A stretch of DNA of 64,000 nucleotides, taken from positions 333,958-397,957 of the forward strand of contig NZ_LMFB01000019.1 in assembly GCF_001426685.1 (NCBI RefSeq). Direction: 5' to 3'. The position numbers and the translations under genes were made by a program. Numbering within the stretch: position 1 is the stretch's first letter; each line of letters starts with the position of its first letter. Below are positions 38,102 to 41,334 of this stretch, piece by piece. A model generated the notes under the pieces. That model had not been told where the DNA came from and searched no databases. It saw only the letters and a list, made by a program, of their open reading frames with translations. The DNA is from Rhizobium sp. Root483D2 (GTDB taxonomy: Bacteria; Pseudomonadota; Alphaproteobacteria; Rhizobiales; Rhizobiaceae).

Positions 38102-38746
38102 ATGAAGATCATGATTGCGGAGTTCGCTGCGGCGGCCTTCGTTCTGTTTGCCCGCGCGATCACTGCGGTCCGGGCCATCTGGCCGGAGCATGGATTGCCG
38201 TCGCGGCCTAGCGTCTATTTTGCCAATCACTCCAGCCATGGCGATTTTGTGCTGGTCTGGGCGGTCTTGCCGCCGCGCTTGCGAAAACAGGCGAGACCCG
38301 TGGCTGGCGCTGAGTATTGGCTGAAATCGAAGGTCAGCACCTTCATCGGCCGCGATGTCTTCAACGCCGTGCTGATCGAGCGCGAGCAGGAGAAGCGGAC
38401 GCAGGACCCGATTGCCCTGATGACCACGGCGATCGATGACGGTTCGTCGCTCATCCTCTTTCCGGAGGGCACGCGCAACCAGACAGATGCGCGGCTCCTG
38501 CCATTCAAGAGCGGCCTTTTTCATCTGGTTTCAGCACGCCCGGATGTCGATCTGGTGCCGGTCTGGATCAACAATCTCAACCGGGTCATGCCGAAGGGCG
38601 AGATCGTGCCGATACCGCTGATTTGCACCGTCACGTTCGGCGACGCGCTGCGCATCGCGCCCAATGAGGGCAAGGATGCCTTTCTCGAGCGCATGCAGGC
38701 GGCCCTTCTGGCCCTGGCTCCAAAACCATTGGGAAGCGGCGAATGA
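38102..38746 (+). CDS. Lysophospholipid acyltransferase family protein (PlsC-like)
   Basis: A 214-aa membrane-associated acyltransferase. The catalytic HX4D motif is present as ANHSSHGDF, and the substrate-binding FPEGTR motif follows in LILFPEGTRNQ. It would place an acyl group on a lysophospholipid, probably making phosphatidic acid or a related lipid. Its stop overlaps the start of the CdsA-like gene (ATGA), and it is the first gene of a four-gene phospholipid unit. Confidence 0.9.
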   Translation: MKIMIAEFAAAAFVLFARAITAVRAIWPEHGLPSRPSVYFANHSSHGDFVLVWAVLPPRLRKQARPVAGAEYWLKSKVSTFIGRDVFNAVLIEREQEKRTQDPIALMTTAIDDGSSLILFPEGTRNQTDARLLPFKSGLFHLVSARPDVDLVPVWINNLNRVMPKGEIVPIPLICTVTFGDALRIAPNEGKDAFLERMQAALLALAPKPLGSGE

Positions 38747-39696
38747 ATACGGCGGCAAGCTCCGACCTTCTCACCCTGGTTTTCGGTATTTTCGGCGTGC
38801 TGATCTTTGCGTCCGTAATCGGCTATGTCCTGCAGCGGCGCTTTGCCGCCAACGGGCCGAATGCTGCGGTCGAAAACCTCAACGCCCGCATCAAGGCTTG
38901 GTGGGTGATGGTCATCCTGATCGGCATTGCCTTCATCGCAGGCCGGGCCGGCGTCCTTATTCTCTTTGCCTTCTGCTCTTTTGCTGCCTTGCGGGAATTC
39001 GTCACGCTGATCAATACAAGGCGCGCTGATCACTGGGCGCTCGCTTCGGCTTTCTTCATCGTGCTGCCGATCCAGTATTACCTGCTCTGGGCGGAGGAAT
39101 ACGGCATCTTCGCCATCTTCATTCCGGTCTATGCCTTCCTGCTGATGCCGATCATTTCGGTGCTGCGGGGCGATACCGAGCGGTTCCTGATCCGCATCGC
39201 CGAAGTCCAATGGGCGTTGATGATCTGCGTTTTCTGCGCCTCGCATGTGCCGGCGCTGCTGACCTTGACCATCCCCGGTTATGAGGGGCGCAATGTGCTT
39301 CTGATCGCCTTTCTGGTAATCGTCGTGCAGTTGAGCGATGTGCTGCAATATGTCTGGGGAAAGCTGTTCGGCCGCACCAAGATCGCCCCGAACCTGTCGC
39401 CGTCAAAGACCGTCGAGGGGTTTGTGGGCGGCGTCATCAGCGCCACGCTGATCGGCGCCTCGCTCTGGTGGATCACACCGTTTACGCCATTCCAGGCAGG
39501 GGTGCTTGCCTTCATCATCACCATCATGGGCTTTTTCGGCGGGCTGGTCCTGTCGGCGGTCAAGCGCGATCGCGGCGTGAAAGACTGGGGCAATCTGATC
39601 GAGGGCCATGGCGGGCTGATCGACCGGCTGGACTCCGTCGTCTTTTCCGCGCCGATCTTCTTTCACATCGTGCGCTACTGGTGGTCGCTGTCGTGA
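38743..39696 (+). CDS. Phosphatidate cytidylyltransferase (CdsA-like)
   Basis: A 317-aa polytopic membrane enzyme that would make a CDP-activated lipid from phosphatidic acid and CTP. About eight hydrophobic segments are seen, and the signature is clear: SPSKTVEGFVGG, then VLSAVKRDRGVKDWGNLIEGHGGLIDRLDS. It is likely a second copy in the genome, specialised to this operon, because the housekeeping cdsA usually lies beside uppS/frr. It overlaps both neighbours (ATGA upstream, GTGA downstream). Confidence 0.92.
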   Translation: MNTAASSDLLTLVFGIFGVLIFASVIGYVLQRRFAANGPNAAVENLNARIKAWWVMVILIGIAFIAGRAGVLILFAFCSFAALREFVTLINTRRADHWALASAFFIVLPIQYYLLWAEEYGIFAIFIPVYAFLLMPIISVLRGDTERFLIRIAEVQWALMICVFCASHVPALLTLTIPGYEGRNVLLIAFLVIVVQLSDVLQYVWGKLFGRTKIAPNLSPSKTVEGFVGGVISATLIGASLWWITPFTPFQAGVLAFIITIMGFFGGLVLSAVKRDRGVKDWGNLIEGHGGLIDRLDSVVFSAPIFFHIVRYWWSLS

Positions 39697-40094
39697 GGGC
39701 AACGCTCAAGCGATGGGCAGGCAGCGGCTTGGTGCATATGCTGTTCGCCTTCCTGGCGATGGGCGGCTGGGCGATGTTTGCCAATCGCGACCATGCCATG
39801 CCGCAGCCGCTCTATTCGGGGCTTCTGCAGGGCGCGCTGTCGGCTTGCCTGACGCTGTTCTTGAAATCCGTGATCGACGCGCTGTCCAGACGGTTTACCG
39901 GCGCGGCGGGATTGTGGGCGCCGCCGGTGATCGCATGCCTTGGGTCTGCAAGCCTGCTGACGGCGCTGCATGCGCTGATCGGCACGCCTGAAATCGCCAG
40001 CACCATCGCCGTGCCGCTTCTGGTCTCCACCAGCTACGCATCGATCTACAATTATTCACTGTCGAGACGAAAAGGGAGCGATCATGACGGATAA
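39693..40094 (+). CDS. Small polytopic membrane protein of the phospholipid operon
   Basis: About 133 aa with three or four hydrophobic segments (GLVHMLFAFLAMGGWAMFA, LLQGALSACLTLFL, APPVIACLGSASLLTALHAL, VPLLVSTSYASIYNY). I do not recognise a family. The GTG start at 39693 is chosen because it overlaps the CdsA-like stop (GTGA), matching the tight packing of the unit; ATG 39738 is an alternative. It ends 11 bp inside the next gene. Its place between two lipid enzymes suggests a role in the same membrane pathway. Confidence 0.7.
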   Translation: MRATLKRWAGSGLVHMLFAFLAMGGWAMFANRDHAMPQPLYSGLLQGALSACLTLFLKSVIDALSRRFTGAAGLWAPPVIACLGSASLLTALHALIGTPEIASTIAVPLLVSTSYASIYNYSLSRRKGSDHDG

Positions 40095-40728
40095 AGGCGA
40101 CCGGCGGCCGCTGGCAAGCCGCAATACCCGATGGGCCGGCGCCATCGCGCGGTGGCTGGCGGCACGCGCGATCACGCCCAACCAGATTTCGCAGGCAAGC
40201 ATGGCGGCGGCGGCGCTTGCCGGAGGCGCGTTCGTGCTGGCGGGTCAAGGTACGGGCGGGTCCCGTATCGTCTTCCTCATCGTGGCGATCCTGTGTTGCC
40301 AGCTCCGGCTGCTGTGCAACCTGTTTGACGGCATGGTCGCGGTGGAAGGCGGCAAGGGTGCGCCGGATGGGCCGTTCTGGAACGAGTTCCCGGACCGCGT
40401 TGCCGATCTCCTGATCTTTGCCGGCGCCGGCTATGGCATCGGCATGCCGGGTCTTGGCTGGGCCGCAGGGGGCTTTGCAGTTCTTACAGCCTATGTGCGC
40501 GAACTTGGCCGTGCCACGGGACAGCCAAGTGATTTCTCAGGCCCGATGGCCAAGCAGCATCGCATGGCCACCATCACGGCGGCTGCGGCCATCTCAATTC
40601 TAGAGCCGCTCTGGGATGGGCACAATGCGATGCTGATAGTGGCGCTCTGGATCGTGGCGATCGGCGCAGCACTCACGGCCCTCCGCCGTAGCCGCACATT
40701 GATCCGCCGTTTGAAAGGGACTGTCTAA
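40084..40728 (+). CDS. CDP-alcohol phosphatidyltransferase-like protein with a changed signature
   Basis: A 214-aa membrane protein of the CDP-alcohol phosphatidyltransferase fold. The classical signature DxxDGxxAR...GxxxDxxxD appears here as NLFDGMVAV...GPFWNEFPD, so the first Asp and the third Asp are Asn, and the Arg is Val. The spacing is kept. This points to a distinct subfamily rather than random decay, like that of E. coli YnbA, whose operon also has CdsA- and PlsC-like proteins. The product is probably an unusual phospholipid; the head-group donor is not known. Confidence 0.8.
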   Translation: MTDKGDRRPLASRNTRWAGAIARWLAARAITPNQISQASMAAAALAGGAFVLAGQGTGGSRIVFLIVAILCCQLRLLCNLFDGMVAVEGGKGAPDGPFWNEFPDRVADLLIFAGAGYGIGMPGLGWAAGGFAVLTAYVRELGRATGQPSDFSGPMAKQHRMATITAAAAISILEPLWDGHNAMLIVALWIVAIGAALTALRRSRTLIRRLKGTV

Positions 40729-40756: not shown

Positions 40757-40786
40757 CACAAAAAACCCGGCGCAGGGGCCGGGTTT
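40757..40786 (-). terminator. Terminator of rcdA
   Basis: AAACCCGGC (40763-40771) and GCCGGGTTT (40778-40786) form a 9-bp stem. Read on the minus strand it ends in a run of T, so it mainly terminates rcdA, and may also stop transcription from the phospholipid operon. Confidence 0.85.
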
Positions 40787-40815: not shown

Positions 40816-41334
40816 TCAGTTGGTGCCGAAAGCCGTCTGCAGCAGATTGAGCTGGGCCTTGACGCCGTTCTGGTTGTCGGGAAGGAAATTCTGGGCTTCC
40901 GCCGGGCGATAGATTTCGCGGTCGAGCAGGGCAACGCGGTTCTGCAGGCGCAGCGAGCGGTCGATCAGATCGCGGAAACCCTCCGGCAGGTCATTCCAGC
41001 CCGGCGCGGTGCGATCGACGTTGAAGCTATCGAGGCGAACCTTGTTCTTTTCCGAAAGAACCTGTTCGCGGTTCATCTCGCCATTGTTGACTGCGCGCTG
41101 CAGCAACAGCCAGGATGCCATCTGCATCAGGCGGGTAGTGAGGCGCATCGATTCTGCCGCATACAGGACCGATGCCATGCGTGGCAGAACCTTTGATGCG
41201 CTACGGCCGGGGCCGTCGAGATAGCTTGCCGTTTCTTCAACCAGGCCCATGCCTTCTGCGTAGAGCACCTTGAACTGCGCCGACGACGCAGCGTGCCCCG
41301 CGAAGCTCACAGTATTCAATCCCCGTTCGGACAT
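40816..41334 (-). CDS. rcdA: DUF1465 protein, RcdA homologue
   Basis: A 172-aa helical protein of the DUF1465 family. The segments VLYAEGMGLVEETASYLDGPGR, YAAESMRLTTRLMQMASWLLLQRAVNNGEM and PEGFRDLIDRSLRLQNRVALLDREIY match the family. In Caulobacter RcdA is an adaptor that helps ClpXP degrade CtrA and other cell-cycle proteins. The family is limited to alphaproteobacteria. The role is carried over from that work. It is monocistronic with its own terminator. Confidence 0.88.
   Translation of the reverse strand: MSERGLNTVSFAGHAASSAQFKVLYAEGMGLVEETASYLDGPGRSASKVLPRMASVLYAAESMRLTTRLMQMASWLLLQRAVNNGEMNREQVLSEKNKVRLDSFNVDRTAPGWNDLPEGFRDLIDRSLRLQNRVALLDREIYRPAEAQNFLPDNQNGVKAQLNLLQTAFGTN

Follow-up and report, generated by a model that had tools for sequence, protein, structure and literature searches.

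The window analysed here, a whole stretch of 64,000 nucleotides from Rhizobium sp. Root483D2 (contig NZ_LMFB01000019.1, positions 333,958 to 397,957 of the forward strand), carries a compact putative phospholipid operon at positions 38,102 to 40,728, the last gene of which encodes a protein of the predicted CDP-alcohol phosphotransferase (CDP-AP) fold with a changed active-site signature. In order, with coordinates in the window, the four genes are:

38102..38746, + strand: PlsC-like 1-acylglycerol-phosphate acyltransferase (P0001, 214 aa), Pfam PF01553, motifs H43-x4-D48 and FPEGTR intact
38743..39696, + strand: YnbB/CdsA-like CDP-diacylglycerol (CDP-DAG) synthase (P0002, 317 aa), Pfam PF01148
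39693..40094, + strand: small membrane protein (P0004, 133 aa, GTG start), from its open reading frame (ORF) and predicted helices
40084..40728, + strand: CDP-AP-fold protein (P0003, 214 aa), from its predicted fold, with Asn at signature positions D1 and D3

These ORF coordinates give successive overlaps of 4, 4 and 11 bp, all on the + strand, in agreement with the single overlapping four-gene unit proposed in a first-pass annotation of this DNA. The gene identities proposed there stood. The PlsC-like and CdsA-like proteins matched PF01553 (66.1 bits against a cut-off of 23) and PF01148 (220.7 bits against 24); for P0004 and P0003, Pfam searches returned no family above its cut-off. The idea that the unit could make a lipid from start to finish was too strong, since the first acyltransferase of such a route, acting on glycerol-3-phosphate, is not among the four genes. 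All four genes were found in one locus (E ≤ 1e-10) in 74 of 80 contig loci of relatives, a set biased towards close relatives (63-89% identity) because it comprises the best-scoring 80 of 496 loci from a scan of genome contigs. Together with purifying selection on every gene (ratio of nonsynonymous to synonymous substitution, dN/dS, 0.02-0.20 against eight relatives; 0.08-0.12 for P0003), this co-occurrence shows that the operon is not a chance arrangement.

The reference CDP-AP signature is D1xxD2G1xxAR...G2xxxD3xxxD4, in which D4 is the proposed catalytic base of known enzymes (PMC6506517). P0003 reads NLFDGMVAVEGGKGAPDGPFWNEFPD (NLFDGMVAV...NEFPD), so that, as first described, Asn replaces D1 and D3 while D2 and D4 are kept; in addition, Val replaces the R of 'AR'. 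The residues concerned, all on the + strand, are:

40306..40308, +: Arg75 of P0003, at D1 minus four, found in every Asn/Asn relative and in none of the Asp/Asp rows that were read
40318..40320, +: Asn79, the D1 position, by signature alignment
40327..40329, +: Asp82, D2, kept, by signature alignment
40381..40383, +: Asn100, the D3 position, by signature alignment
40393..40395, +: Asp104, D4, kept, by signature alignment

PF01066 gave no match to P0003 at E ≤ 1 and weak matches to four of 57 close relatives (best E 0.0033); E. coli YnbA passes the cut-off of this family (39.2 against 22 bits). The best NCBIfam matches were to archaetidylinositol-phosphate (AIP) synthase (52.5 bits, cut-off 180) and phosphatidylinositol-phosphate (PIP) synthase (30.2 bits, cut-off 170), profiles that also weakly match all 57 close relatives in the alignment. 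An AlphaFold2 model built from this 57-sequence alignment (mean predicted local distance difference test score, pLDDT, 85.9) clearly points to the six-helix CDP-AP fold: all 18 Foldseek matches at E ≤ 0.001 were CDP-alcohol phosphotransferases (E down to 2.3e-05), and VIA-align gave Z 19.3 to the Archaeoglobus CDP-alcohol phosphotransferase AF2299 (root-mean-square deviation 2.2 over 184 residues) and Z 17.6-18.8 to PIP synthases. AF2299, the best fold match, differs from P0003 in having Asp at all four signature positions of the aligned sequence, and it has an additional soluble domain. With Asn at D1 and D3 and Val for the Arg of the defining signature, P0003 is therefore a variant clade of the CDP-AP fold, outside canonical membership.

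Signature positions were read by hidden Markov model in the CDP-AP homologues found (E ≤ 1e-5) in fetched loci. Among 186 unique relatives, D1/D3 were Asn/Asn in 146, Asp/Asp in 36 and Ala/Asn in one (L227), with three rows ending short at D1 or D3 and counted in neither class; no row mixed Asp and Asn. The Asp/Asp set consists of hits from searches that used Asn/Asn queries, together with four proteins of the same genome and E. coli PgsA. Near relatives with the standard Asp residues, a case that the first-pass annotation had set as a refutation, did not appear among the 186. The Arg four residues before D1 was present in 146/146 Asn/Asn rows against 0/36 Asp/Asp rows, and the Asn/Asn rows share further features: D2 and D4 in all 146, Glu or Asp at position 101, directly after D3, in 145, Asp at position 108, one turn after D4, in 145, and, among the 144 rows reaching that far, Arg160 and Arg202 in all and Lys157 in 143.

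With the D1 and D3 columns removed before tree building, a single branch separated the Asp/Asp rows from the others. Its support was 90 by the Shimodaira-Hasegawa-like approximate likelihood ratio test (SH-aLRT) in a quick tree (106 rows, including 13 of the 80 loci, chosen by a pattern requiring Asp at D2 and D4) and a not decisive 93/82 in a careful tree of 82 rows, which omits five long-branch Asp/Asp rows and 19 rows taken as near copies. The Asn side of the quick tree, which stands apart from E. coli PgsA and the own-genome row L001, comprises a P0003 clade and a YnbA clade, the long row L042 lying next to the YnbA clade. Plain BLAST links P0003 to YnbA at E 4e-6, and a comparison of the P0003 alignment with a YnbA-led alignment, aligned along the length, gave E 5.4e-86, a value inflated because four of the twelve rows in the YnbA-led alignment are P0003-type. 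The Asn pair is thus a trait of a broad family that includes E. coli YnbA and not a quirk of one genome; the signature is present as first claimed, and what did not hold is that it is special to this operon.

Five CDP-AP relatives (L048, L053, L057, L060 and L164) retain the standard D1-D3 and lack D4, the proposed base, which is replaced by Gly in the first four and by Val in L164; the L057 and L060 loci each also hold a standard CDP-AP copy. The Ala/Asn gene of L227 is YnbA-like and perhaps decaying; neither PlsC nor a CDP-DAG synthase was matched in the 16 kb of that locus.

The search for the same signature beside CdsA and PlsC in other genomes, suggested with the first annotation, linked the clade to a source of CDP-DAG. 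Windows of 5.9-17 kb centred on Asn/Asn genes held both PlsC and CDP-DAG synthase in 14/14 P0003-type and 31/37 YnbA-type cases (six of the 37 lacking PlsC, the synthase or both), compared with 0/8 Asp/Asp windows, one of which has a weak CDP-DAG synthase match; L227 and the Asp/Asp windows L164 and L229 are excluded from the Asn/Asn counts. Across the 80 contig loci, PlsC and the CDP-DAG synthase were each found in 77, and a relative of the small membrane protein (E ≤ 1e-4) was found in 75. Of the loci without PlsC, L134 and L136 end at a contig edge, and L144 is intact with neither PlsC nor synthase in 14.8 kb. Among clusters of flanking ORFs, the largest reached only 15 of the 80 loci. The module thus appears self-contained, and its surroundings give no clue to the acceptor. 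The surroundings of the YnbA type have members of their own, a YnbC homologue lying in 24/37 windows and ynbD in 21/37; the sole YnbC match in a P0003-type window (L223) covers the hydrolase part only, at 30%.

Both partner enzymes look active from their residues. P0001 carries PF01553 together with the HX4D and EGTR motifs, and the catalytic H, D, E, G and R of PlsC are kept in all 77 copies from the 80 loci. P0002 resembles CdsA/YnbB synthases in PF01148, in the other signature positions tested and in D249, all kept in 77/77 copies; the second metal Asp, D297 in P0002 numbering, is present in 77/77. It departs from them at two positions. Within the signature KDX5PGHGGX2DRXD, P0002 has Glu in place of the P of PGHGG (across 77 copies, Glu in 58, Ala in 14, Asp in 3 and Gly in 2), and the metal-ligand position D219 of TmCdsA is Gly267 (39541-39543), again Gly in 77/77 copies, whereas E. 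coli YnbB keeps the Asp. Eukaryotic CDP-DAG synthase is reported to have Gly at the D219 position (PMC7018664), so Gly there need not mean lost function.

In MjPSS, D1 and D3 are described as each contacting both metals, with D2 and D4 each serving one (PMC8633023), so the Asn pair of P0003 removes exactly the two bridging carboxylates. Because D2 and D4 are kept and Arg75 lies one turn before D1 on the same helix, a single metal, or two loosely bound ones, probably occupies the remodelled site, and Arg75 would compensate for the lost charge; alternatively, Arg75 may pair with Asp108. The donor is probably still a CDP-lipid, given that the CDP-cleft positions of PgsA1 (Gly83, Ala86 and Gly96 in P0003) are invariant and that many Asp/Asp rows share Asn33 and Ser36. 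Regarding the acceptor, R155 and R195 of PIP synthase are reported to bind inositol phosphate with help from S132 and K135 (PMC4634129), and these residues align with R160, R202, A136 and R139 of P0003. The Rhizobium protein is like PgsA1/PIPS in fold, in both pocket Arg and in the Gly/Ala/Gly of the CDP cleft, with Arg for Lys135, and differs in the Asn pair and in Ala for Ser. Since the kept Arg160, Arg202, Arg139 and Lys157 align with this pocket, an alcohol that is anionic or phosphorylated is the probable acceptor. In the YnbA clade both pocket Arg are retained, and Glu (39/40) and Gly (40/40) stand where P0003 has Ala136 and Arg139, so the two types may use different acceptors. A search for inositol-phosphate synthase PF07994, with hits in 5 of 14 genomes, gave none in this genome or in the E. 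coli control; its absence here is evidence against PIP being made de novo.

From the genes, the predicted fold, the residues, gene coupling and selection, we infer an active enzyme, the number of its metals and the class of its acceptor. We give an even chance to the reading that the operon is one self-contained module making a special phospholipid through an active, remodelled CDP-AP, whose acceptor would be anionic or phosphorylated and would not be de novo inositol phosphate. In the proposed route, PlsC would produce phosphatidic acid, the YnbB-type enzyme would convert it into CDP-DAG, and P0003 would transfer the phosphatidyl group to the acceptor, freeing CMP, with the small membrane protein as an optional helper; a new chemical product is possible. 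A wider conjecture, which we hold tentatively and as rather doubtful, is that the clade with Asn/Asn and the marker Arg constitutes a separate class within the CDP-AP fold, in which one ancient step swapped the two-metal centre for one metal and an arginine, and which, with its own PlsC and CDP-DAG synthase, makes an undescribed head group in rhizobia and E. coli alike.

Several observations weigh against the single-module reading. Every tested change of the four Asp of MjPSS, to Ser or Asn, is reported to lower activity strongly or abolish it (PMC8633023), so a dead enzyme is conceivable; the placement of Arg75 is deduced solely from the sequence and the helix register; and Ala136 stands at the pocket position S132. 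All earlier CDP-AP structures are said to share one of the pocket's sulfate sites (PMC6506517), so that site argues only weakly for a phosphorylated acceptor. In E. coli, a ynbB knockout is described as growing like its parent with MPIase unchanged (PMC6362211), and among the matches listed from the open-licence literature there was no product or phenotype for P0003 or YnbA.

The loss of much or all activity in the MjPSS signature mutants lends itself to a different account, in which the Asn/Asn protein transfers nothing and instead binds CDP-DAG or its partners, steering PlsC and the CDP-DAG synthase. MtPIPS D93N, altered at D4, is reported still to bind inositol phosphate, the authors inferring that catalysis and not binding is lost (PMC4634129). 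Such a pseudoenzyme is nevertheless unlikely, given the complete conservation of D2, D4 and the new Arg and the near-complete conservation of the pocket Arg160, Arg202 and Lys157; one exact two-residue state across a large clade looks like constraint rather than decay, and the YnbC homologue recurs near YnbA-type genes. We judge it quite unlikely that the module is an alternative or stress copy of an ordinary pathway, making phosphatidylglycerol phosphate, phosphatidylserine or similar, with an acyl pattern set by its dedicated PlsC. The genome does encode a second PF01148 protein and, besides P0003, four proteins of PF01066 that show Asp at D1 and D2 in the motif stretches read, so that the module could be a second set with which its own PlsC travels; a duplicate, however, would not need the coupled active-site change, and the Asn/Asn rows lie apart from E. 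coli PgsA and the own-genome protein in the quick tree.

Loss of two acids and gain of an Arg could also fit a phosphate nucleophile, the neutral Asn admitting a dianionic phosphate so that a sugar-1-phosphate acceptor yields a diacylglycerol-pyrophosphate-sugar, like N-acetylglucosamine-pyrophosphate-diacylglycerol (GlcNAc-PP-DAG), the precursor of E. coli MPIase. Here ynbA adjoins ynbB, whose overproduction is reported to raise MPIase although YnbB cannot replace CdsA (PMC6362211), and ynbB is among five insertion-depleted genes in a strain making only phosphoglyceride-linked enterobacterial common antigen (PMC8609368). The same reports assign the MPIase-precursor reaction to CdsA/YnbB, alongside the unchanged MPIase of the knockout (PMC6362211), and describe ynbB as not needed for phosphoglyceride-linked enterobacterial common antigen (PMC8609368); with D4, the base for a hydroxyl nucleophile, kept throughout, we consider this chemistry improbable. 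Least probable of all is an ordinary PIP or AIP synthase in which the substitutions are harmless: these are the best NCBIfam profiles, and PIP synthases are among the top fold matches, but the scores lie far below the cut-offs, D1 and D3 are replaced, the pocket Ser is Ala, and the PF07994 search gave no hit in this genome, as in the E. coli control.

The small membrane protein is not an obligatory part of the module. Three gene sets from close relatives (L125, L132 and L145) are complete except for it, and in the wider P0003-type windows it was matched in 5/14 by tblastn and in a sixth, L156, by blastp. P0004 has five predicted helices, four of them 19-31 residues long. Pfam gave no match to it at E ≤ 1 and only scattered weak matches among 46 members of its family (best E 0.0023), and an AlphaFold2 model of middling confidence (mean pLDDT 71.7) returned no Foldseek match at E ≤ 0.001. 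Two candidate relationships were rejected: VIA-align scores did not exceed Z 8.3, obtained with a designed helical protein, which is within the chance range for helical bundles, and homology to the small protein in the ynbD-plsC gap of YnbA-type clusters had an hhalign probability of 0.3%. That gap held an extra ORF of 146-235 codons (counted from the first start) in 12 of the 13 examined, for example L149:9348-9788 and L199:11688-12134, with none listed in L213; eight of these ORFs align, at 24-94% identity to the first. Downstream of the operon, a terminator-like hairpin of nine pairs (40763-40786, scored on the - strand) lies before a convergent ORF (40816-41334) that we take to resemble RcdA/DUF1465; the region holds five such sites, where chance alone would give 3.6.

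The distribution of the two types hints that they exclude each other. Among 24 genomes of the genus besides G000, 16 carried the P0003 type and seven the YnbA type, with one of these having both and two neither (Fisher p 0.0013), and in a family sample of 199 genomes including G000 there were 39 strong matches, 25 weak YnbA-like matches taken by score and not by residues, and one genome with both (p 0.033), p values that ignore kinship. A genus member that is 78% complete (G013) has both module types (L023, L035 and L155), some genes of each appearing frame-broken, possibly through sequencing error.

The first-pass annotation had likened the operon to E. coli ynbAB, and the likeness was borne out: P0002 is 39% identical to YnbB, and YnbA shares with P0003 the Asn at both D1 and D3, the Arg four residues before D1 and an adjoining CDP-DAG synthase gene. 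Overall identity between YnbA and P0003 is only 24-26%, YnbA keeps the R of 'AR', and the E. coli ynbABCD stretch has ynbC and ynbD in place of the small membrane protein, with no plsC annotated there. The K-12 ynbA-ynbD stretch was matched over at least 80% in 4242 of 5426 complete E. coli genomes; among the matches listed, three E. coli records (H31-H33) have an insertion sequence element inside it, with the CDP-alcohol transferase split into two features. YnbA was formerly annotated as a cholinephosphotransferase, an assignment reported as withdrawn from EcoCyc (PMC3781023), and its expression is said to be activated by BglJ-RcsB (PMC12871917). The open-licence literature, among the matches listed, contained no YnbA enzymology and no Asn signature in CDP-alcohol phosphotransferases.

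Overall, the first-pass observation holds and its interpretation is broadly right, but the operon is better seen as belonging to a broad, uncharacterised clade in which two active-site residues have changed together. By fold and context P0003 would work like a CDP-AP, although it departs from the signature that defines the family. The clade takes in YnbA, an uncharacterised protein of the best-studied bacterium. The two-residue switch with its marker Arg provides a simple sequence test for the family and makes the question open to direct testing in E. coli K-12. Ultimately, if a one-metal site does serve this family, a central fold of lipid enzymes would have an exception to its textbook mechanism, and a class of lipids may have been missed.

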